A stretch of DNA of 64,000 nucleotides from Terebella lapidaria. Its lineage: Eukaryota; Annelida; Polychaeta; Terebellida; Terebellidae. Both the position numbers and the translations under genes were made by a program. The notes beneath the pieces were generated by a model, which was given only the letters and a program-made list of their open reading frames with translations, did no database searches and had not been told where the DNA came from. Below are positions 51,310 through 62,268 of the stretch, piece by piece. Position 1 is the stretch's first letter. Each line of letters opens with the position of its first letter. The stretch is from contig OX424566.1 of assembly GCA_949152475.1 (NCBI GenBank), positions 29,984,423 through 30,048,422 of the forward strand. The letters run 5' to 3'.

Positions 51310-52205
51310 TGTGACGTTTGGTAATGACTTGTTTTCGGTGTGGCCCAAAAAACCTGGTTTCTCTGATCGTATAGACTTTATGTAACTCCCGCTCGTTGTG
51401 ATTCGAGAGCCGTCACTAAATTGGTGTCCCCCAACGCTGGTGTATCATCACTCCGTAGCTCACCGGCTTCACTTAGGCAAGAAGCAACTCAGATGTAAAT
51501 AAATTGAAGATTTATATACATCAAATCAACTTACAATTGTATGGCTGGTCACCCACGTGACGTACAAATATGAAGTTCAGACATGGAGCACTGTATGATC
51601 ACATTTCAAAAATAAATAGTGCACGAGGGCACAACTAAAAAGAGTTCTTAGCCGGCGGCGTCTCTCTGTCCCTTCCCGTTGAAGTTTCCCGTCCCGCTTA
51701 GTCGAATGGTTTCTCCAGGTAGTCGGTCTAAATCCCGGTTGACTCTAAGGCCCTGAAGAAGGAGTCGTCCGCACGGAGTTCGTCGAGTCCCTTGGCTGTG
51801 GCGGTGACGATCTCCCCACGGTCGATGTCGCTGTTGCAGTGCTCTCAGAGCGGCCGTCCGCTCTCCCTTATATAGCCAGGGTGGCTGCGCGCGCATCTTC
51901 GTCCGCGAACGTATCTTCCGCACTCTTCTCCACGTGGTGAAGACTGCGTCCGCGAACGGTTCTTCCGCGAAGGCTCCTCTTCCGCGAACGGTGCTTCCGC
52001 GACTGATGCTTCCGCTGATGATGCTTCCGCAATCGTGCTTCCGCGAACGGTTCTTCCGCGAACGATGCTTCCGCTGATGATGCTTCCGCAATCGTGCTTC
52101 CGTGAACGGTTCTTCCGCGAACGGTGTCTTCGCAAGTGGACTTTGTAGATCACGTGACCGTTCCTAACGAACGTTTCAGCGCGGCAGTTGCATGGTTTTG
52201 TTACA
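51310..52205 (-). repeat. 3' LTR (on the element's strand)
   Basis: 896 bp, same length as 61373-62268 at a constant offset of 10,063, with no difference seen on reading. The region 51906-52130 is a degenerate array of TTCCGCGAACG-type units (some with TTCCGCTGATGATGC, TTCCGCAATCGTGC spacers, including an internal duplicate of about 54 bp). It lies upstream, on minus, of TATATAAG at 51874-51867. ORFs through the array (147 codons) arise from 15-bp spacing and span the TATA box, so they are unlikely to be genes. Confidence 0.95.
51867..51874 (-). promoter_or_regulatory. LTR TATA box (3' LTR copy)
   Basis: TATATAAG on minus, preceded upstream by the TTCCGCGAACG-type array. The equivalent in the 5' LTR is 61930-61937. 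A second TATATAAA lies at 51518-51511, further into the LTR. Which one sets the U3/R boundary cannot be told from sequence. Confidence 0.65.
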
Positions 52206-52218
52206 ACTCCACCCTTTC
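52206..52218 (-). other. Polypurine tract (PPT)
   Basis: On minus GAAAGGGTGGAGT directly abuts the 3' LTR, the expected place and composition for the plus-strand DNA primer of an LTR retrotransposon. Confidence 0.75.
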
Positions 52219-52325
52219 TGGAGATCAACGTCCCCGTTGATCCTTTCTCTCTCTTCTTTTCTCTTCTTCCTCCTTCTTCGTCTTTTCCTGCCTGTCTGAT
52301 GTTTACAGGGCTCTCTCCCTCCACT

Positions 52326-53414
52326 TCACTGGCGATCCACCTCGCTTTCGGACGTTTCCGCCAGCCTGTCTCGAGTGTCTGTATATGCTCGGAGCTGTTC
52401 CCGGAGCAGCTTGGTCTCTCGGACGTGGGCTCGCAGCTCCTTCCGGTGGCTCTTCTCTCGTTGAGAGGCCTCCCCTCGCAGCTGCAGCACCTCGGCCTCG
52501 AGCTGTCTCTGCTCCTCCTTGGCTTGGAGCCGAGCCTCCGCTTGGGTGAGGTGGCGTCGTCCCATGGCTATCGTGGATGCCAGGTCCTCCAGGGCCTTCT
52601 CTCCGGCAGTGACCGCTCTGCCCAGGCCCTCCACATACGGTCGCAGTTGGTCCTCCTCCTCCGGAACGGGCTTGAGGTACCAACTCAGGTCTAGGGGCTT
52701 GTAGGTAGGGGCCGAGTCTCTGGGAACGGGGGGTCCGTCGTCCTCGGGGGTGGGGGCCTCCGGGGATTCCGCCTCTCTCCGCTCCTGCTGAGACTCCGGT
52801 TCCTCTTCGCTATTCGGGGGGTCGTCCTCGGGGTCTGGGGCGTCCTCTGACCTGGGGGCGTCCTCCCGGGGGCTTGACGGCGTGGAGCTGGTCGTCCCGC
52901 TGGCCGCAAAGCTGACAGTCTTCAGCTCAGGGGCAGACACAGTAGTCGGACCATCTCGGGGGTCGGACACGGGCGTGTCGGTCGTCGTCCTCCTCCGTCC
53001 TGGCTTGAGGGTGTTGCCGCTGGCATGCGACGTCTCATGCCGGTCTCTGTCAGCTCGGCGGGCGAATCGCTGGCTGCACATCTTGCAGAGGTGCCGCCCC
53101 TCCTTCTGCGTGTGTTTGGTCGCCACGTGTCGGCTAAAGTTGGATGCCGTCACGTGGATCCGGCAGGGGCTGCACCAGCGTCGCCCTCTCTCGGTGGACA
53201 ACTTCCGGGCAGGGGACCGTCGACCTCCTCGGGGCTCCTCACGACGCTCCCGGCTCCTCGAGCGCTCCCGCTTTCGGTCAGGCTTGGTAGGTGGGTCGCT
53301 CATCTTGTCGACTTCAAGGGGCAGAAAGTCAGCCAAGTCGAAATCTGGAACGTCCCCGAAATCTTCGTCTGCAAATGCGGGTATCTCAATGATCTGCAGA
53401 GTTGGTGTGTTCAT
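52326..53414 (-). CDS. ORF3: acidic, RS-rich, two-C2H2-finger, coiled-coil protein
   Basis: 362 residues, in the position where env would lie. Residues about 13-36 are strongly acidic with interspersed Phe and Leu (DFGDVPDFDLADFLPLE), the composition of an acidic activation domain. Residues 44-72 are Arg/Ser-rich, a likely nuclear-localisation or RNA-binding stretch. Two zinc fingers follow: residues 81-101 (C-x2-C-x11-H-x4-H) and 110-130 (C-x2-C-x12-H-x3-H). A Pro/Glu-rich linker (about 140-245) leads to a long charged heptad-type region (about 250-355) that should form a coiled coil. The ATG at 53414 lies 35-42 nt downstream of a TATA box. There is no signal peptide and no membrane helix, so it is not an envelope protein. 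I know no standard Gypsy protein with this layout. I infer a nuclear DNA-binding, self-associating protein; whether it activates, represses or packages is open. Confidence 0.85.
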   Translation of the reverse strand: MNTPTLQIIEIPAFADEDFGDVPDFDLADFLPLEVDKMSDPPTKPDRKRERSRSRERREEPRGGRRSPARKLSTERGRRWCSPCRIHVTASNFSRHVATKHTQKEGRHLCKMCSQRFARRADRDRHETSHASGNTLKPGRRRTTTDTPVSDPRDGPTTVSAPELKTVSFAASGTTSSTPSSPREDAPRSEDAPDPEDDPPNSEEEPESQQERREAESPEAPTPEDDGPPVPRDSAPTYKPLDLSWYLKPVPEEEDQLRPYVEGLGRAVTAGEKALEDLASTIAMGRRHLTQAEARLQAKEEQRQLEAEVLQLRGEASQREKSHRKELRAHVRETKLLREQLRAYTDTRDRLAETSESEVDRQ

Positions 53415-53448
53415 GGTTGAAGTGATGACGGAATCGTAGGCCGGCCTG

Positions 53449-53456
53449 CTTATATA
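53449..53456 (-). promoter_or_regulatory. Internal TATA box for ORF3
   Basis: TATATAAG on minus, the same 8-mer as in the LTR. Thirty bases downstream the sequence GTCATCAC offers an initiator-like TCA (A at 53426), which would leave a 12-nt leader before the ATG at 53414. Confidence 0.6.
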
Positions 53457-53525
53457 GAAAAGGCGCGGACCAGGGATCTGGGGGAAAAAGCATTGTCGTG
53501 GAACGAAATAACGTTTTTCGCTTGC

Positions 53526-53640
53526 TTCCGCGAACGGTTCTTCCGCGAACGCTGCTTCCGCGAACGTGCTTCCGCGAACGGTACTTCCGCGAACGCTGCT
53601 TCCGCGAACGCTGCTTCCGCGAACGGTTCTTCCGCGAACG
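53526..53640 (-). repeat. Eight-copy TTCCGCGAACG array upstream of ORF3
   Basis: Exact 11-mers start at 53526, 53541, 53556, 53570, 53585, 53600, 53615 and 53630 (plus). Spacing is 15 bp except one step of 14. The array lies between the pol stop (53654) and the internal TATA box, about 70 bp upstream of the latter on minus. It has the geometry of a multi-site binding platform, about one and a half helical turns per unit. Confidence 0.9.
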
Positions 53641-53653
53641 CTCCCGTCATCGT

Positions 53654-56600
53654 TTACATCGTTTGGACTGCATTCCCGCTGTTTTCCACTCGTCCCTCGT
53701 CATCACTGGGGGTCCGGACTGGGGTCACATCGTCCGGATTGGGTATCCAGGCGTCGGTTTCAGGGGTGAACCAGCACCTTTTTATATTGTCAATGTGGAC
53801 ATCTTTAATCTTGCCACCGGGTCGATCTTGTATGGACACCATCCATCCGAGATGAGACTTCACAACGAGATAAGGTCCCGTCCACCCTAGTCCTAGTTTT
53901 GGTCTAGCCTTTGGAGGGTACCAATACATCACCCAGGTGCCCACCGGAAAATGTCGAGCGGCTGATTTTATGTCATGATGGCGCTTTTGTCGCACCGTAG
54001 CCGTCTTCAGGCACTCTCGGGCAGTCTCGTGAGCTTGTATGGTGGCTTCCTTCACCCATTCGACGTATTCGGACGCACACTCGGGGACTGGTCCTCCCAA
54101 ATCGTCCGGTTTCGTCCGGTACCTCAGGTCCAATGGGGTGGTTGCCTCCCGTCCCATCATCATTCGAAATGGTGTACACCCGGTGCTTTCGTGTACTGAT
54201 GTTCTATAAGTCGCCATCACGTAGGGCAGATGGTCGTCCCAGTCGTCATGGTTCTCGTCCACGACCACGGCCAGAAGGTTCAGCAGGGTCCGGTTGAATC
54301 GCTCGACCATCCCGTCTGATTTGGCGTGATAAGGGGTCGTCCGAGTCTTCTCCCCTCCTAGGATCTTGATCATCTCAAGGAAAAGCTTACTCTCGAACTC
54401 TCGTCCCTGGTCGGTGTGTATCTTGGCTGGCATTCCCAGGCGGCACACGAACTCAGTCACAAAGACGTCCGCCACCGTCTGAGCCTCATGGTTGGGTAGA
54501 GCGTAGGCCTCAGTCCACTTGGTGAAATAATCACCCACGACCAGTATATACCGGTTCCCAGAATTGGTGATCGTTCCAGGCTCCAAAATGTCCATGGCCA
54601 CCCTTTCTAGCCGATCGCCTACCGGTAGATTTCCCATGGGGTGGTACTTGGGCCCCGGTCGCGGCTTTCTCCCACTACACTTCAGGCACTCCCGGCACCA
54701 ACGCTCCACGTCCTTCGTCATACCCGGCCAGTACATTCTCGCTTTTAGTCGGTGGACTGTTTTGGTGATTCCCTGGTGGCTCATCAGCTTGCCGGTGTGG
54801 ACCTCCTTCATGACGGCGCGTCTCAGGACCTGTGGAACGACCAGTTGATGGATTGGTGCGTTCTGGCAAGCCGCTTGGTACCGCCGGTACAGAAGCCCAT
54901 CACGTAGCTCCAGCTGGTCCCACTGTTGCCACAGAGTCTTCATTTGCTGACTTTTTGTTCTGACTTCGGGCCATGCAGGTCTCTCAGTGAAAATATTCTT
55001 CCACCCGAGGATGCCTCCAACTTCAGGGTCGGCTCGTTGAAGGGTCACTAGGTCCTCCTGGGAATAACCATTCAGGACCTGGGCCTCCGGGGCTCCCTCC
55101 ATCGGATTCCGGCGTCCTCCCGTAGCCATAGCCCGCGTGACAGCTAGCATTTGTTTGTCTGGATCTCGGAGCACAGGGTTGGGGCATGGGTCCAGGAAGG
55201 GCTCCTCTCGGCAGCGCATCCACACGTCGGCCGTCGCGCCGATCGCTGCTCCGGCCACAACCTCCGGTCCCAAACCATGCAGTGCGAGGAGCATCATCAG
55301 GAGAAACCAAACCCAGGCAGAGGGGCGGAGCTGATGCAGGGTTCTGCAGACGCTCCTGGCTCCTTCCTCCGTCTGTGGGGGGCTCCGGTCAGGCAGGCAT
55401 TCCTCGGTCGGCTGGGTAGTCGTCCTCGGGTCCTCCTGGCAGCGCACCTCCCAGATCTGGAATATCCCGACTCCATCTCCGCAATAGTAGTCCTCCGTCC
55501 AGGGCTCCACAGGGACCTCCCGCAAGATGTTAACTTGAGGTCCTCCGGGGCTCCATCCTTCTCCGCTGATCGGTGGAAGCAGATCCTCGTCAGAGAGGTC
55601 CTCCAGGGGTAGGGGACACTCCTCCTGAGTCGGACAGGCCTCCTCTTCTCCTTCGGGTCTTGTGGTGTGGCGAGGGGCGGGACAATCCGGTCTCCGGCAC
55701 TGTCGGCATCTGGACATCCCGTCTGCATTCCCGTGTTGTACTCCCGGTCGGACCTCACACCTGAAGGCGTAGCTGGCGATGCGAGCTGCCCATCTAGCGA
55801 TCATTCCTTCCGCATCCCGAAAGTTCAGTAGCCACTTGAGAGAGGCGTGGTCGGTTCGTAGTAAGAACGCTCTCCCCCACAAGAAATGTCTGAAATGGTG
55901 TATCATACTGACGACGGCCAGGAGCTCCCGCTTGGTGGTGCAGTAATTCCGCTGGGTGTCCCTCAGGGTTCTGGAAGCATAGGCGATCACCCGCTCTCGT
56001 CCGTCCTGCACTTGGGATAAGACGCCTCCCACTCCGTAGCCGCTAGCATCAGTATCTAAAATAAATTCTTGGTCCATGTCAGGGTACACCAGCAGGGGGT
56101 GCTCGGTCAGGGGTTGACGCAGCGCCTCGAACGCCTGCTGATGAGCCTCGCTCCAATGGTAGTTGACTTCCTTCTTTAACAGGTGGTTGAGGGGTCCCGC
56201 TCGGGTGGCAAAGTCAGGGATGAATCTGCGGTAGTACCCCACGAACCCAAGGAAGCTCCTTAGTTCTGTCAAGGTGGTCGGAGGAACCATTTTTGTTACA
56301 GCTTCGACCTTGGCAGGGTCGCACTGGATGCCTCGGTCGGACACGACATGGCCCAGGAAGTTGACCTGTTGTCGAAACAGCTCACACTTGGCGGGTTTCA
56401 GCTTCAGCCCGGCAGCCTGCAGTCTCCGGAACACGTCCTCGAGGTTGTCCACGGCTTCTTGGAAAGTCTTTCCAAGACAGACGACATCGTCCAAATAAAT
56501 TAGACAACGCTTCCATTGGAGTCCCCTCAGTGCCAGCTCCATTAGACGTTCAAAAGTAGCCGGGGCCGTCGCCAATCCAAACGGCATCACTTTAAATTGA

Positions 56601-58726
56601 TAGAGTCCACTACGGGTAGTGAACGCCGTCTTCTCCTTGTCCCTGTCGTCCATCTCGACCTGCCAGTAACCACTAGCCAAGTCTAGCGTCGAAAAATATC
56701 GTCCTCCTGACAAGGTATCAAAACTCTCGTCGACTCGAGGCAGGGGGTACGCATCCTTCCGGGTGACATCATTTAGACGGCGGTAGTCGACGCAAAATCT
56801 CAGTGCACCATCCTTCTTTTTCACTAGCACGATGGGAGACGACCATGGACTGTCACTTGGCTCCACAACGTCAGCTTTCAACATCTTGTCGACCTCGTCC
56901 TCGATCAGCTCTTGTTGGTAGTACGGGGCTCTCCTCAGAGGCTGCTTGATCGGGGGGTGATCTCCCGTGTCGATGACGTGTTTCGCCAGGGACGTCCGGC
57001 CCAACCTCCCATCTGGTCCCATAAAGACCTGCTGGTGGCGTCGAAGGAGATCGCTGACGACCTCCACCTCCTTTTCCGTCAAGTTCGGATGCATTCCCTC
57101 CAGGAGCGGTTCTAAATGCTCCGGGCACTCTGGTGTCTTCGTCGACGATTCTGCGTGCATGGCGTGCACTCTGGTTTCGGGCTGCTCAGGCGTCCGGTTC
57201 CGCCACTTGGTGGAGTTTGGTGTAAGGGGCTCATGCTCCCTCCCGCTCTCCTCCCGGTACCACTGTTCCCTTTTAGGTTCATTCTGGGTTGTTTTCCCTC
57301 CATCGGGACGAAATCCCAGGTCGATCACGGCCTCTATTCCGTGAAGCTCGGCTAGGATGGTCCCCATCAGCACAGTGCAAGCTCCAGCGCCGGCGTTCAG
57401 AAGTACCACCGGTACCAGGCGTCCTCGGGGTCGTACCAGGGCTCGTCCCACTACGAGGGGGTCGTCCTCCAACGGCTCTCTTGCGGACTGCACGAGGCCG
57501 GCCTTCGGAACTCCTCCCTCACTTCCTGTCAGCTTGAGGTCCACCATCATCTCTGAAAAGGGTGGCAAGACGACCGTCTCCTCCGTCACCAGTGTGTAGA
57601 CGGCGTCCTCGTGGCCCGAGCTCATCACTACGGTAGTGTCGCCCACCTGCCACTCGCCCTTACGCAGATCCAGCTGTCCCCCAATCTGTTGAAGTACATC
57701 AAGCCCCAACACTCCCGGGATCCCTAGTTTGGCTACCAGTACATCTGCCGACACGAGTCGTGTGCCCAGTAGAAGTTGAACTGTCATCTCTCCTTGAACC
57801 TGTAAGTAGTCTCCGGTTGCTGCCCGTAACCTTATTCTCGTCTGCCTTATCATTGCTTTATGTTCGTCATCCATTTGGTCGAAGAGACACTCGTCCAGAA
57901 CGGTGGAAGAGGCACCCGTGTCCACCAACATACGAGTCGCCTTCCCCATAACGTGGCACGCCGCATACCACGCCAATGTGCCTCGGGCACCGGCTGACAG
58001 CGACACCACCTGGCCATTTCTGTCAATCTTAAGAGAGCTGCCACTCTCCTCAGGGACGCCGCCCTGGATAAGTACTGAGTCGTCCACCCACAGTGATGCA
58101 CCACCCTGGTCCTCTCTGTCAGTCTTAAGGGAATCACTCCCCTCGGAACCGCCGCTCCGGATAAGTAATGAGTCGTCCACCAGCAATAGCTGCTGCGCTG
58201 GCCCCTTGGTCATTCCGCTCCACCGGCCCTCCGTCTCCTCTTTCACGGCCGCTTGTGGTTCAGTTGCATAGGGGGGTCCCTGCTGTTTCGCAGCCTCCAG
58301 CCTCAAGGTTGTAACCTGTTGGTTCTCCTTGCTGCTAGCAGAAACCTCGTTGATGTCTCCGTGGGTCCCCAGACGCTCCACGGCTCCATCGGTCTGCATT
58401 TCGTCGACGTCTCCGCGGGTCATTAGACGCTCCACGGCTCCATCGGTCTGCATTTCCTTGACGTCTCCGCGGGGCATTAGACGCTCCACGGCTCCATCGG
58501 TTTGCTGTACATTGGCACTCCCGTCTGTGTTGACAGGCTTGCCCTCCAAATAGTCGAGAATTCGATCCTCGAGCTCCTCCTGCGCCCATCCAGTTACTTC
58601 GGATGCACACCGGAAAAACCTATTAAAAATCTGTGAAACTAAAAATTCCCCCCTGGCAATGTGTTCTTCACGTCTTCGTCGAGCTTCTCGCCTGTGAAGC
58701 CGTGCACACACCTGCCAATGGCCCAT
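53654..58726 (-). CDS. pol: Gypsy Pol polyprotein (protease, RT, RNase H, integrase)
   Basis: 1690 residues from the ATG at 58726; the frame is open upstream to about 58789, overlapping the end of gag in the -1 frame. Protease: LVDTGASS with D269, and GVLGLDVL at 338-345. Reverse transcriptase about 583-790: LDLASGYWQV at 681 and YLDD at 744-747. RNase H about 888-1006: DTDASGYG with D893, E934 and D959. Integrase: HHCC knuckle (H1310, H1317, C1347, C1350), catalytic D1379, D1439, E1475 (35 residues between the last two) and GPY at 1617-1619. The C-terminus ends without a chromodomain. Two oddities: an N-terminal region with an 18-residue repeat (QTDGAVERL...GD, three copies, about 75-125) and a second imperfect duplication around VDDS.LI (182-240); and a segment of about 270 residues between RNase H and integrase that includes a hydrophobic stretch at 1136-1165 (WVWFLLMMLLALHGLG). 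All catalytic residues are present. Confidence 0.96.
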   Translation of the reverse strand: MGHWQVCARLHRREARRRREEHIARGEFLVSQIFNRFFRCASEVTGWAQEELEDRILDYLEGKPVNTDGSANVQQTDGAVERLMPRGDVKEMQTDGAVERLMTRGDVDEMQTDGAVERLGTHGDINEVSASSKENQQVTTLRLEAAKQQGPPYATEPQAAVKEETEGRWSGMTKGPAQQLLLVDDSLLIRSGGSEGSDSLKTDREDQGGASLWVDDSVLIQGGVPEESGSSLKIDRNGQVVSLSAGARGTLAWYAACHVMGKATRMLVDTGASSTVLDECLFDQMDDEHKAMIRQTRIRLRAATGDYLQVQGEMTVQLLLGTRLVSADVLVAKLGIPGVLGLDVLQQIGGQLDLRKGEWQVGDTTVVMSSGHEDAVYTLVTEETVVLPPFSEMMVDLKLTGSEGGVPKAGLVQSAREPLEDDPLVVGRALVRPRGRLVPVVLLNAGAGACTVLMGTILAELHGIEAVIDLGFRPDGGKTTQNEPKREQWYREESGREHEPLTPNSTKWRNRTPEQPETRVHAMHAESSTKTPECPEHLEPLLEGMHPNLTEKEVEVVSDLLRRHQQVFMGPDGRLGRTSLAKHVIDTGDHPPIKQPLRRAPYYQQELIEDEVDKMLKADVVEPSDSPWSSPIVLVKKKDGALRFCVDYRRLNDVTRKDAYPLPRVDESFDTLSGGRYFSTLDLASGYWQVEMDDRDKEKTAFTTRSGLYQFKVMPFGLATAPATFERLMELALRGLQWKRCLIYLDDVVCLGKTFQEAVDNLEDVFRRLQAAGLKLKPAKCELFRQQVNFLGHVVSDRGIQCDPAKVEAVTKMVPPTTLTELRSFLGFVGYYRRFIPDFATRAGPLNHLLKKEVNYHWSEAHQQAFEALRQPLTEHPLLVYPDMDQEFILDTDASGYGVGGVLSQVQDGRERVIAYASRTLRDTQRNYCTTKRELLAVVSMIHHFRHFLWGRAFLLRTDHASLKWLLNFRDAEGMIARWAARIASYAFRCEVRPGVQHGNADGMSRCRQCRRPDCPAPRHTTRPEGEEEACPTQEECPLPLEDLSDEDLLPPISGEGWSPGGPQVNILREVPVEPWTEDYYCGDGVGIFQIWEVRCQEDPRTTTQPTEECLPDRSPPQTEEGARSVCRTLHQLRPSAWVWFLLMMLLALHGLGPEVVAGAAIGATADVWMRCREEPFLDPCPNPVLRDPDKQMLAVTRAMATGGRRNPMEGAPEAQVLNGYSQEDLVTLQRADPEVGGILGWKNIFTERPAWPEVRTKSQQMKTLWQQWDQLELRDGLLYRRYQAACQNAPIHQLVVPQVLRRAVMKEVHTGKLMSHQGITKTVHRLKARMYWPGMTKDVERWCRECLKCSGRKPRPGPKYHPMGNLPVGDRLERVAMDILEPGTITNSGNRYILVVGDYFTKWTEAYALPNHEAQTVADVFVTEFVCRLGMPAKIHTDQGREFESKLFLEMIKILGGEKTRTTPYHAKSDGMVERFNRTLLNLLAVVVDENHDDWDDHLPYVMATYRTSVHESTGCTPFRMMMGREATTPLDLRYRTKPDDLGGPVPECASEYVEWVKEATIQAHETARECLKTATVRQKRHHDIKSAARHFPVGTWVMYWYPPKARPKLGLGWTGPYLVVKSHLGWMVSIQDRPGGKIKDVHIDNIKRCWFTPETDAWIPNPDDVTPVRTPSDDEGRVENSGNAVQTM
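58381..58510 (-). repeat. 54-bp in-frame repeat in pol, three copies
   Basis: CGGCTCCATCGGT starts at 58381, 58435 and 58489 (plus), a period of 54 bp giving an 18-residue repeat in the Pol N-terminus. Confidence 0.85.
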
Positions 58727-58749
58727 ACGGTTGGGGGCTGGTATGAGCC

Positions 58750-58789
58750 CTACTGGTTTTCCGACTCCTCGTCTGTCAAACTGTTCCGC
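58750..58789 (-). promoter_or_regulatory. gag/pol overlap with a candidate -1 frameshift site
   Basis: The pol frame is open from about 58789, while gag ends with TAG at 58752-58750, and pol is in the -1 frame relative to gag. The heptamer G GAA AAC (58762-58756), in the gag frame three codons before the stop, resembles slippery sites but does not fit X XXY YYZ strictly (the P-site slip has a mismatch). No downstream pseudoknot was worked out. Alternatively pol starts at its own ATG 24 nt after the gag stop. Confidence 0.4.
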
Positions 58790-61308
58790 TCACCAATCTC
58801 CTCGATTAGTCGACTCAAGCGCTCCTCCTTGGTCCGAGGTGGCGGCCGATCTGGACACTGGTACTTCCGATGACCCGGCTTCCCACAGTACCAACAGTCA
58901 TCTGGTCCCGGCCTAGCGCTTGGTCCCTTGTTCTCAGCAGTGGCGGCCCTCGGCTTGATGGATAGCACCTGCTCACACAGCTCGATTAGTCGATCCAGCT
59001 TCCTGTCTTGGCTCTCAAAGAGCCCCTTGAAGTAGGGAAGTCTGGGTAGACCCGCTACGTTCGGCTGGTTGCTCTGCTGCCCACTGGTGGTAATCTCGCC
59101 TCCCTGCTGGTTCTTCAACAGCTGTAGGACCCGTCCTAGAGCTGGCTCGGAGTCCTCCGACTCTATGGACATCACCGGCTTCCCAGGCTTGGGTTTGACA
59201 CATTCGTACTGGGTCACGAACGCTATGGCCTCCTCCATGGTCTTCATCTTCCTCATGAGCGCCATCACCTTCATGTCCCCATCTGGATGGCCCTTCCAGA
59301 AGTGGTCTAAGGCGATAGCCTCCTGAGCTGCGGAGTTCAGATCCGGATAACCACGGCCGGCCAGTCGCTGCAACTCATAGCCGTACTGCTGGGGTGTCTC
59401 TGCCTTCCTGCGGGTTCTCTGTCCCAAGGTCGCCTTGTAGGACTCCTCCTGACAGTCAGGGTCGAATCGTAGGGTCAGCTTGTCGGTCAGAACGTCGATG
59501 TCCCTCCGGTCTGCAGGACTCAGGCTGGTCAGCATTCGTCGCGCCTCTCCTGTCAAGCTCCCGGCTAAGTAGACGCCCTGTTCCCGCTTGCTCCATCCGT
59601 TGACCTCTGCGATGACGTCAAAGTGGGCCCGGTACACCGGCCACTCTATGGAAGTCCCATCGAACTTGTCAGGGGTCAGCATCTTCCGGTTCCTTCTGCC
59701 GTTCTGATTCCAGACTGTGCTGTCCTCGGACGACGAGTCCTCCTGCCTCCGTCTCGGCCTAGGGCTTCGTCGGTGCAGCGGCGGTCCCCGCCTCGGTGGT
59801 CTCCTCCCCCGTCCTGGGTAACCATGGCTGCTGTCGGTCCCTCCATCAGATGAAGGCCCCTCATCGCCCGATGATGAGAAAGGGTGCTGTCTCCGGCCTC
59901 CCTGGGTGACTGAAATAGAAGCTGGATTTCTCCAGGAGGCTGGCTGTCTCGGTTGTCGACTGGGTGAAGACCTCCCTCTTCCGCGAACGCTGTCTTCCGC
60001 GAACCCTCCGCGAACACTGTCTTCCGCGAACCTTCCGCGAACGGACTCCTCCGCCAACAGCTCCCGAAGAAGTTCTTCCGCGAACAGGCCTCTTCCGCGA
60101 ACGCCGTCTTCCGCGAGTCTTCCGCGAACGGGCTCGTCCGCCAAGATGTCTCGGAGACGTCCCTCCACAAAAGATGCACGTCCGCGAACGCCATCTTCCG
60201 CGAGTCTTCCGCGAACCGGCTCATCCGCGAATGGTCTTCCCCGTCTATTCTGAAAAACTGGAAAGGAAGATTGGTCGCCTGGATCACTCCTTTCGTCGAG
60301 CCGCCGTCTGGGTGAAGACTCCTCTCTTCCGCGAACACTCTCTTCCGCGAGTCGTCCTCGTCCGCGAACGTGGTCGTCCGCGAAGGGCCCTCCCCGGTCA
60401 CAAGCGTCCTCGTCACCAAAGACTCCCCCTCGCCCACGAGCCCGTTCATCCACGAAGGATCCCCGGCTGCAAGCGTCCCTGTCGCCGAAGAATGCCTCTC
60501 GTCCGCGAATGTTCTCTTCCGCGAAAAGTCCTCTCCCTCTCGAGCTGCTCTCTTGGGTCGGAGCCCAAGTAACCCGTCCTCCAGTCACTCCCGTTTGTCG
60601 ACTCGTCACACCCGACCGCTGCCCTGTTGCACCAGACTGCTGCTCTGTTGCACCAGACTGCTGCTGGGACTGGTCCCAAAGCCGTCTCAATGCTGCATTC
60701 TCTGGAGGTGCCACACTTGGACTCTGCTCCGGTAGCTGTAGCCGATCCCTCCTCGCCCAGATTTCGCCGTCCTCCCCGTCCAGATTGACGTACTCCGGTC
60801 CCAGCACTCGTCGGAACTCGGGGCCCCTCCTAACGCTCTCAAGGTAGGTTGACCTCTCCCTGTCTCGATCGTGCTGCCACCCAGAGTCGTGTCTGAAAAG
60901 AAAACGGTTGTCGGGTGTCTGGCTCCGGGGTCTCTGTTGACTAGTCGACTGGCCCATGGAAGGTCTCGACCTCCCTGGTTGCTCCTCACTCGTCGAAACG
61001 TCCCGTCTACCCCTGGCTGTGAAGCTGCTCTTCCGCGAACGGTCGTCTTCCGCGAACGTTGTCTTCCGCGAACGGTCGTCGGCCTCTTCCGCCAAGGTCG
61101 TCTTCCGCGAACGGTTGTCGTCCGCGAACGTCTTCCGCGAACGGTCGTCTTCCGCGAACGTCTTCCGCGAACGGTCGTCTCCCTCTTCCGCAAAGGTCGG
61201 CTTCCGCGAACCGCTGTCTTCCTCGTCCGCAAGTGAGGCCGTCCGCGAAGAGTCTTCCTCTTCACCTCCTGTCTTCCCTGGGGCAGTTTCGTCGTTTTCG
61301 CCGGACAT
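58750..61308 (-). CDS. gag: Gypsy Gag with a repeat-rich disordered N-terminal half
   Basis: 852 residues. Residues about 542-710 look like a Gypsy capsid (KFDGTSIEWPVYRAHFDVIA, LAGSLTGEARRML). A CCHC zinc knuckle lies at 805-818 (C805, C808, H813, C818). The first ~470 residues are low-complexity and dominated by FAEDDRSRK- and VRGRG-type repeats, which are translations of the TTCGCGGAA motif (the reverse complement of TTCCGCGAA) in three different frames. The protein packages element RNA and forms virus-like particles by family knowledge. The start ATG at 61308 lies 64 nt after the 5' LTR, a short leader. At 852 residues it is much longer than usual Gypsy Gags (commonly 250-500), the excess being the repeat region. 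Confidence 0.92.
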   Translation of the reverse strand: MSGENDETAPGKTGGEEEDSSRTASLADEEDSGSRKPTFAEEGDDRSRKTFAEDDRSRKTFADDNRSRKTTLAEEADDRSRKTTFAEDDRSRKSSFTARGRRDVSTSEEQPGRSRPSMGQSTSQQRPRSQTPDNRFLFRHDSGWQHDRDRERSTYLESVRRGPEFRRVLGPEYVNLDGEDGEIWARRDRLQLPEQSPSVAPPENAALRRLWDQSQQQSGATEQQSGATGQRSGVTSRQTGVTGGRVTWAPTQESSSRGRGLFAEENIRGREAFFGDRDACSRGSFVDERARGRGGVFGDEDACDRGGPFADDHVRGRGRLAEESVRGREESSPRRRLDERSDPGDQSSFPVFQNRRGRPFADEPVRGRLAEDGVRGRASFVEGRLRDILADEPVRGRLAEDGVRGRGLFAEELLRELLAEESVRGRFAEDSVRGGFAEDSVRGRGRSSPSRQPRQPASWRNPASISVTQGGRRQHPFSSSGDEGPSSDGGTDSSHGYPGRGRRPPRRGPPLHRRSPRPRRRQEDSSSEDSTVWNQNGRRNRKMLTPDKFDGTSIEWPVYRAHFDVIAEVNGWSKREQGVYLAGSLTGEARRMLTSLSPADRRDIDVLTDKLTLRFDPDCQEESYKATLGQRTRRKAETPQQYGYELQRLAGRGYPDLNSAAQEAIALDHFWKGHPDGDMKVMALMRKMKTMEEAIAFVTQYECVKPKPGKPVMSIESEDSEPALGRVLQLLKNQQGGEITTSGQQSNQPNVAGLPRLPYFKGLFESQDRKLDRLIELCEQVLSIKPRAATAENKGPSARPGPDDCWYCGKPGHRKYQCPDRPPPRTKEERLSRLIEEIGERNSLTDEESENQ
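59985..61245 (-). repeat. Dispersed TTCCGCGAA motif array inside gag
   Basis: Dozens of copies lie in two clusters, about 59985-60530 and 61025-61245, with spacing of varied length that keeps gag in frame. The same 9-11-mer as in the LTR and the ORF3 upstream array. The motif is read as F-A-E, R-S-R-K and V-R-G-R at different places in one protein. Confidence 0.9.
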
Positions 61309-61351
61309 GAGTGATGCTGAGGTTCGTTCCCTGGCAGTAGACCCTCGGGGA

Positions 61352-61369
61352 TCCTGGTCACGTGCACCA
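61352..61369 (-). other. Primer binding site (PBS)
   Basis: On minus, three bases after the 5' LTR, TGGTGCACGTGACCAGGA begins with the TGG expected to pair with a tRNA CCA end. The matching tRNA 3' end would be TCCTGGTCACGTGCACCA. I could not assign the amino acid; the end resembles animal tRNA-His only loosely. Confidence 0.65.
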
Positions 61370-61372
61370 AGT

Positions 61373-62268
61373 TGTGACGTTTGGTAATGACTTGTTTTCG
61401 GTGTGGCCCAAAAAACCTGGTTTCTCTGATCGTATAGACTTTATGTAACTCCCGCTCGTTGTGATTCGAGAGCCGTCACTAAATTGGTGTCCCCCAACGC
61501 TGGTGTATCATCACTCCGTAGCTCACCGGCTTCACTTAGGCAAGAAGCAACTCAGATGTAAATAAATTGAAGATTTATATACATCAAATCAACTTACAAT
61601 TGTATGGCTGGTCACCCACGTGACGTACAAATATGAAGTTCAGACATGGAGCACTGTATGATCACATTTCAAAAATAAATAGTGCACGAGGGCACAACTA
61701 AAAAGAGTTCTTAGCCGGCGGCGTCTCTCTGTCCCTTCCCGTTGAAGTTTCCCGTCCCGCTTAGTCGAATGGTTTCTCCAGGTAGTCGGTCTAAATCCCG
61801 GTTGACTCTAAGGCCCTGAAGAAGGAGTCGTCCGCACGGAGTTCGTCGAGTCCCTTGGCTGTGGCGGTGACGATCTCCCCACGGTCGATGTCGCTGTTGC
61901 AGTGCTCTCAGAGCGGCCGTCCGCTCTCCCTTATATAGCCAGGGTGGCTGCGCGCGCATCTTCGTCCGCGAACGTATCTTCCGCACTCTTCTCCACGTGG
62001 TGAAGACTGCGTCCGCGAACGGTTCTTCCGCGAAGGCTCCTCTTCCGCGAACGGTGCTTCCGCGACTGATGCTTCCGCTGATGATGCTTCCGCAATCGTG
62101 CTTCCGCGAACGGTTCTTCCGCGAACGATGCTTCCGCTGATGATGCTTCCGCAATCGTGCTTCCGTGAACGGTTCTTCCGCGAACGGTGTCTTCGCAAGT
62201 GGACTTTGTAGATCACGTGACCGTTCCTAACGAACGTTTCAGCGCGGCAGTTGCATGGTTTTGTTACA
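61373..62268 (-). repeat. 5' LTR (on the element's strand)
   Basis: 896 bp, with the same content as 51310-52205: repeat array at about 61969-62193 and TATATAAG at 61937-61930. It should drive the genomic transcript leftward through gag and pol. Confidence 0.95.
61930..61937 (-). promoter_or_regulatory. LTR TATA box (5' LTR copy)
   Basis: TATATAAG on minus immediately downstream of the TTCCGCGAACG-type array; the likely core promoter for the gag-pol transcript. Confidence 0.65.

Follow-up and report, generated by a model that had tools for sequence, protein, structure and literature searches.

A Gypsy LTR retrotransposon of the annelid Terebella lapidaria with a two-finger protein predicted to read the tandem arrays of its own element

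The window analysed here, a stretch of 64,000 nucleotides of the Terebella lapidaria genome (contig OX424566.1 of assembly GCA_949152475.1, positions 29,984,423 to 30,048,422), carries on its minus strand an intact LTR retrotransposon (51310-62268; all coordinates are those of the window) whose third open reading frame, ORF3, encodes a protein with two C2H2 fingers. The site predicted for these fingers agrees with a short motif that is arrayed in both LTRs, ahead of ORF3 and within gag, and recognition of the array by the fingers is, as a prediction from sequence, well supported. We consider it probable that the element encodes in ORF3 its own sequence-specific transcription factor, which has sites at both promoters of the element and forms an activating loop of the kind known from foamy virus Tas.

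A preliminary description of this DNA had proposed a Gypsy element, and its anatomy bears this out. The two LTRs (5' LTR, 61373-62268; 3' LTR, 51310-52205; both minus strand) are 896 bp long, mutually identical, have TG..CA ends and are flanked on either side by ATAT, a 4-bp duplication; the window element is a fresh insertion. The internal part consists of a gag ORF of 852 aa (58750-61308), a pol ORF (53654-58789) and ORF3 of 362 aa (52326-53414), all on the minus strand. According to the ORF list and Pfam, pol encodes protease, RT, RNase H and then integrase, each supported by one or more models scoring above cut-off, which is the domain order of Gypsy (Metaviridae), and judged by its sequence the element is a Gypsy LTR retrotransposon. 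The CCHC knuckle of gag scores slightly under the Pfam cut-off, and the RT relatives of the window element carry the annotation retroelement pol proteins. The gag and pol frames overlap by 40 nt (58750-58789), with pol in the -1 frame relative to gag. In the host genome assembly (761.6 Mb, 438 contigs), 113 of 1,723 first-look candidates for the family of the window element, here family A, were scored, and in all 113, window copy included, ORF3 residues 1-362 were matched at 100% (rounded) with no stop. Family A is young and abundant in this genome.

Units resembling CGTTCGCGGAAG precede TATATAAG in both LTRs and ahead of ORF3. The TATA box, CTATATAAG on the element strand (CTTATATAG on the plus strand), is found at 61930-61938 in the 5' LTR, at 51867-51875 in the 3' LTR and at 53449-53457 before ORF3, where it marks a presumed internal promoter. 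With at most one mismatch allowed, the 11-mer TTCCGCGAACG is matched 44 times in the window, where 0.54 matches would be expected (maximum 3 among 100 shuffles), in agreement with the initial observation of an 11-mer array upstream of a TATA-like box in the LTR U3 and in the ORF3 spacer. The spacer array (53526-53640, minus strand) consists of 8 perfect units at a spacing of 14-15 bp. The LTR array (approximately 61964-62197 and 51901-52134) has 15 units, with 15-bp spacing at 11 of 14 intervals; just 4 of the 15 contain the perfect 11-mer, and the retained part is the core GCGGA. Variation lies outside this core, three positions of which are invariant in 15/15 units, a count that is biased upward by the selection of units by their core. 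One core of the window copy reads ACGGAA (52098-52108 and 62161-62171), a position at which an ungapped comparison shows G in 28 of 30 other copies; of the remaining two, L028 agrees with the window copy and L017 falls out of register. Counts of GCGGA(A/C) across the 30 fetched copies of family A range from 7 to 9 in the 280 bp preceding ORF3 and from 12 to 19 in the 1.5 kb that follows it, and this variation from copy to copy implies that the arrays expand and contract. Sites in family A are almost exclusively sense-oriented.

The arrays extend further than first described, with two additional clusters in gag on the minus strand, cluster 1 at 61031-61251 in phases 0 and 1 and cluster 2 at 59979-60527 in phases 1 and 2. 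Within gag, GCGGA occurs 35 times on the sense strand, 34 of them in the first half of the ORF, compared with an average of 14.4 over 500 shuffles of synonymous codons (maximum 23), and GTTCGCGGA occurs 21 times compared with a mean of 1.1 (500 shuffles, maximum 5). All three reading frames are used (17, 10 and 8 GCGGA sites by phase), and the encoded peptides differ accordingly (RSRK, FAED, VRGR). These peptide changes, together with the excess over synonymous shuffles in three phases, indicate that the motif in gag is kept at the DNA level.

The composition first described for ORF3 was also recovered. Residues 1-38 form an acidic, Phe/Leu-rich start with 10 D/E against 1 K/R, the two fingers occupy residues 81-130 (53025-53174, minus strand), and a C-terminal helix is predicted at 254-361, with block pLDDT values of 94-98 across residues 271-350, yet 54-78 across the fingers. 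Finger 1 is short by one residue (C-x2-C-x11-H-x4-H). The tandem C2H2 motif is present in family A, where Pfam recognises the fingers weakly (zf-H2C2_2, E 0.011, under cut-off); of the sister families described below, E passes zf-C2H2 (36.3 versus a cut-off of 25.2), while F, like A, stays under the cut-offs. In the PDB the best sequence match is to the two-finger domain with which Tramtrack binds DNA; it is weak (E 0.028) but covers both fingers and includes a common SNFxRH; a fold search with the low-confidence ORF3 model gave no match at E 0.001 or better. Among public proteins a single relative was found, a 365-aa protein 99% identical to ORF3 (ENA record), and none was found in viral contigs. 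Up to E 0.1, Pfam reported in ORF3 neither the VANC domains DUF1985 and DUF287 nor a Tas family.

Related elements with the same layout occur in the same genome. Searching with the pol of a related protein, P0064 (29 of 14,810 candidates scored), located family E at 1 place and family F at 6, two of the F places being stop-free in the match. In L077 (family E) and L076 (family F), ORF3 follows pol; it starts with an acidic segment, carries two fingers and ends in what by eye resembles a coiled coil. The N-terminal acidic stretch of ORF3 is common to A, E and F, as is a near-identical primer-binding sequence, TTGGTGC(A)CGTGACCAGGAT. LTR identity is 99.9% in E and 99.7% in F, the spacers of both contain GACGTCATGACGT and a TATA-like box ahead of ORF3, and array units in the three families measure 15, 18 and 21 bp. 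Of two further F copies, L081 has kept its fingers and has 6 sense sites in its spacer, as many as L076; in L080 finger 2 is interrupted by a stop, and the spacer has 3 such sites. Family F sites are evenly divided between the strands (18/18 in the LTR, 6/6 in the spacer), often as inverted pairs, and this balance points to duplex DNA as the target in F and would suit a dimer. The gag of E has no visible enrichment (CGGTG 2+1 in 1,485 bp), which counts against our preferred reading. The E copy (L077, L079) is situated inside a 158-bp satellite array, with satellite flanking both LTRs. The C-termini of P0064 and P0073, pol proteins of related elements, consist of repeats of 5 to 6 residues (SALRT, NKEP), which look as though arrays overlapped the end of pol in those elements as well.

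A second search used the finger part of an outside relative, P0067 (150 of 963 candidates scored, best E 1.5e-5), and 28 of the 30 fetched loci belonged to another family, B. Its finger ORF is about 600 residues long in long copies, and its promoter contains CCAAT (28/28), CACGTG (26/28) and TATAAAA (28/28). In L054 a 28-bp repeat lies ahead of the finger ORF, and the number of repeats varies among B copies; by eye it was not seen in 2 of 28 (L043, L068). For 10 B copies chosen for long open frames, dN/dS of ORF3 ranged from 0.09 to 0.93 over 45 pairs, the highest value falling at dS 0.02, and the comparison of L041 with the 9 other copies (0.17-0.22) places B ORF3 under purifying selection. 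Family B (L054, 1-1090) also has a second finger ORF upstream of ORF3 (CKKC..., YYCCLC...RACDLRRHLREAH) with an acidic, Trp-rich tail, in L054 divided from the finger part by one in-frame stop, and with its own promoter with GTGACGTCAC, CCAAT and TATAAAAGGG, plus short GCGGTGCAGTA repeats. P0067 itself is 72% identical to the window element in the RT region and has its finger ORF joined to the end of pol, after AEG/AEK repeats that GCGGARGG could encode; it was set aside as a test case, being available as protein sequence alone, with a D at position -1 of finger 1 that rather suggests C as the third base. Family D (L049, L067, L072-L075), which is old and decayed, was dropped as well: the fingers of L067 fit nCGGAn and its upstream repeat contains TCGGAG, L072 holds remnants, and L073-L075 are without such a repeat.

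Fingers usually lie antiparallel to their DNA site. In finger 2 of ORF3 the helix positions -1, 3 and 6 are R, D and R, and in finger 1 positions 3 and 6 are N and R. Table 2 of PMC9705829, the part of that paper used here, assigns RSDDLVR to GCG and TSGNLVR and QSSNLVR to GAT or GAA, modules that match the two ORF3 fingers at these key positions; it prints modules in reverse order to triplets, and the pairing of module and triplet is our reading of it. With GCG for finger 2 and GAn for finger 1 in antiparallel order, the predicted A site is GCG-GAn, the third base being left open as n since position -1 of the short finger 1 is not predictive of it. The array core of A on the element strand is GCGGAA, in agreement with this pattern. 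From canonical contacts only, the patterns were fixed as GCGGAn for A and F, nCGGnG for E and GnGGnn for B, and each was ranked among all patterns of its shape by the smaller of its LTR and spacer enrichments. GCGGAn came first of 1,024 in both A and F, tied only with its own reverse complement, and nCGGnG came first of 256 in E, whereas with reversed finger order 672 (A, of 1,024), 849 (F) and 100 (E) patterns do better. GnGGnn ranked 15 of 64 in B, a weak prediction with only three bases fixed, for which a fixed stretch behind ORF3 stood in for the LTR, the 3' LTR end not being located. When patterns were crossed between families, 229 of 256 did better than the E pattern in A and only 5 of 256 in F, and 273 of 1,024 did better than the A/F pattern in E; the pairing thus separates A from E but not the E pattern from F, because the GCGGAG of F contains it. 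As A and F share ancestry and the arrays were known before the patterns were fixed, these results amount to two or three tests, none of them blind. The initial proposal that ORF3 is a controller binding the array is upheld in part, by the predicted finger-array match in A, F and E: E combines other fingers with another motif, and F conforms. Family B, which has the same anatomy with a failing prediction, counts against it. No family with the array kept and ORF3 lost was encountered among those examined in a non-systematic search.

Under the mechanism that we favour, the ORF3 fingers would bind GCGGA(A) in the LTR U3 and in the spacer before the internal promoter, and probably also within gag, with sites spaced roughly 15 bp apart. 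The C-terminal helix would let ORF3 dimerise or cluster, the acidic N-terminus would most likely recruit transcription or chromatin machinery, and the protein would raise, or keep open, the genomic promoter and its own promoter in an autoregulatory loop. Feedback control of both promoters, as proposed in the preliminary description, is inferred from the anatomy, an array and a TATA box at each; that its sign is activation is our guess. The computed pattern ranking places predicted sites at the LTR and at the presumed internal promoter in A, E and F. Enhancer function needs no single orientation, and the near-exclusive sense orientation in A therefore counts against this mechanism, as does the failure of the code in B.

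Self-encoded regulators are familiar in complex retroviruses and in some DNA transposons, and the targets of foamy virus Tas are, to our knowledge, without long arrays. Tas is made from an internal promoter and activates that promoter and the LTR, as stated in the accessible parts of PMC8670036 and PMC4929722. The window element would resemble this system in encoding a predicted DNA-binding regulator, in its presumed internal promoter near the 3' end and in having predicted sites at both the LTR and that promoter; it differs in that the host element is a Gypsy element and not a retrovirus, that Pfam gives ORF3 weak zinc fingers alone, and that ORF3 function is deduced. Any grouping of ORF3 with Tas would be a functional one. 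VANC proteins of Arabidopsis VANDAL transposons recognise short, family-specific motifs in tandem arrays within their own element, although VANDALs are DNA transposons, the VANC domains are DUF1985/DUF287 and loss of methylation has been shown, as far as PMC5735166 was available, whereas ORF3 is a C2H2 protein in a retrotransposon. The closest Gypsy precedent that we found, plant Retand, combines family-specific tandem repeats, located between pol and the 3' LTR, with an additional ORF whose product may bind DNA; these ORFs are mainly antisense and of the TRP28 type, and the accessible text reports no match between protein and repeat (PMC11963269). The window ORF3, in contrast, is in sense to gag-pol, is of C2H2 type and has sites in the LTR as well. 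Bdelloid rotifer LTR retrotransposons also have an ORF3 behind pol, described in the accessible text of PMC5408684 as env-like, esterase or exonuclease, unlike the window ORF3, and other plant elements carry extra ORFs of a role given as unknown in the part seen of PMC11728184. Two C2H2 fingers are sufficient for specific DNA binding in Tramtrack (PDB 2DRP), which is cellular and only weakly similar to ORF3 (fold search E 7.9). Troyka, a Gypsy-like lineage, was rejected as an equivalent, its ends being different and the accessible text of PMC12440569 mentioning no ORF3 or promoter. Among the matches listed, considered by titles and abstract starts with subscription literature outside the scope, there was no LTR retrotransposon with its own finger regulator; the components are of known kinds and, as far as seen, their combination in a Gypsy element is new.

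The most serious alternative, to which we give somewhat less than an even chance, is that ORF3 acts like VANC, its binding to the arrays serving mainly to strip or prevent silencing marks, with promoter activation secondary and the gag sites providing element-wide coverage. The 34 sites in gag are distant from both TATA boxes, the host CpG o/e of 0.85 is compatible with some methylation and the array cores contain a CpG; as here, VANC targets are arranged in tandem and vary from one related transposon to the next, co-evolving with their protein, according to the accessible text of PMC5735166. This explanation is weakened by the position of the arrays directly upstream of the TATA boxes at both places and by Pfam, in which ORF3 is unrelated to VANC domains. 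It accounts for the gag sites better than activation does, and both may act together. That ORF3 is instead a repressor limiting its own family through the same sites, as copy-number control, seems unlikely to us: fingers set the target and not the sign, and an array at the own promoter fits negative as well as positive autoregulation, but the acidic, hydrophobic N-termini of A, E and F resemble what we take to be activation domains, and a young, abundant family with ORF3 intact in every scored copy argues against it.

A reading of the arrays as passive minisatellites, with a fortuitous finger match, is in our view highly improbable. Tandem repeats of no known role do lie between pol and the 3' LTR in other Gypsy lineages, as described in the available part of PMC11963269, and family B does not fit the code; against this stand three families with different unit lengths that each retain the predicted pattern in LTR and spacer, the loss of the match when finger order is reversed, and the frame-blind excess of the motif in gag over synonymous shuffles. 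The probability is very small that the arrays act in RNA, with ORF3 or Gag recognising the repeated motif in the genomic RNA so as to package or export it. The sense bias of family A, the presence of the gag sites within genomic RNA and the capacity of inverted pairs to form RNA hairpins would suit such a role, but the sites of F are strand-balanced in LTR and spacer, and the finger code that predicts the core is a code for duplex DNA.

For LTR retrotransposons, the roles of extra ORFs and of tandem repeats are described as unknown in the accessible text of PMC11963269. Here a protein and its predicted target are readable from one sequence, and several families in one genome form matched pairs. 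We see an even chance that these families represent a Gypsy clade with private two-finger factors that co-evolve with their arrays, the arrays colonising gag without regard to frame, family B carrying two finger genes and two internal promoters, and each family mainly activating itself. The matched pairs would offer a natural system in which to follow the co-evolution of regulators with their sites and to see how a selfish element can be directed at its own kind and spare its host.
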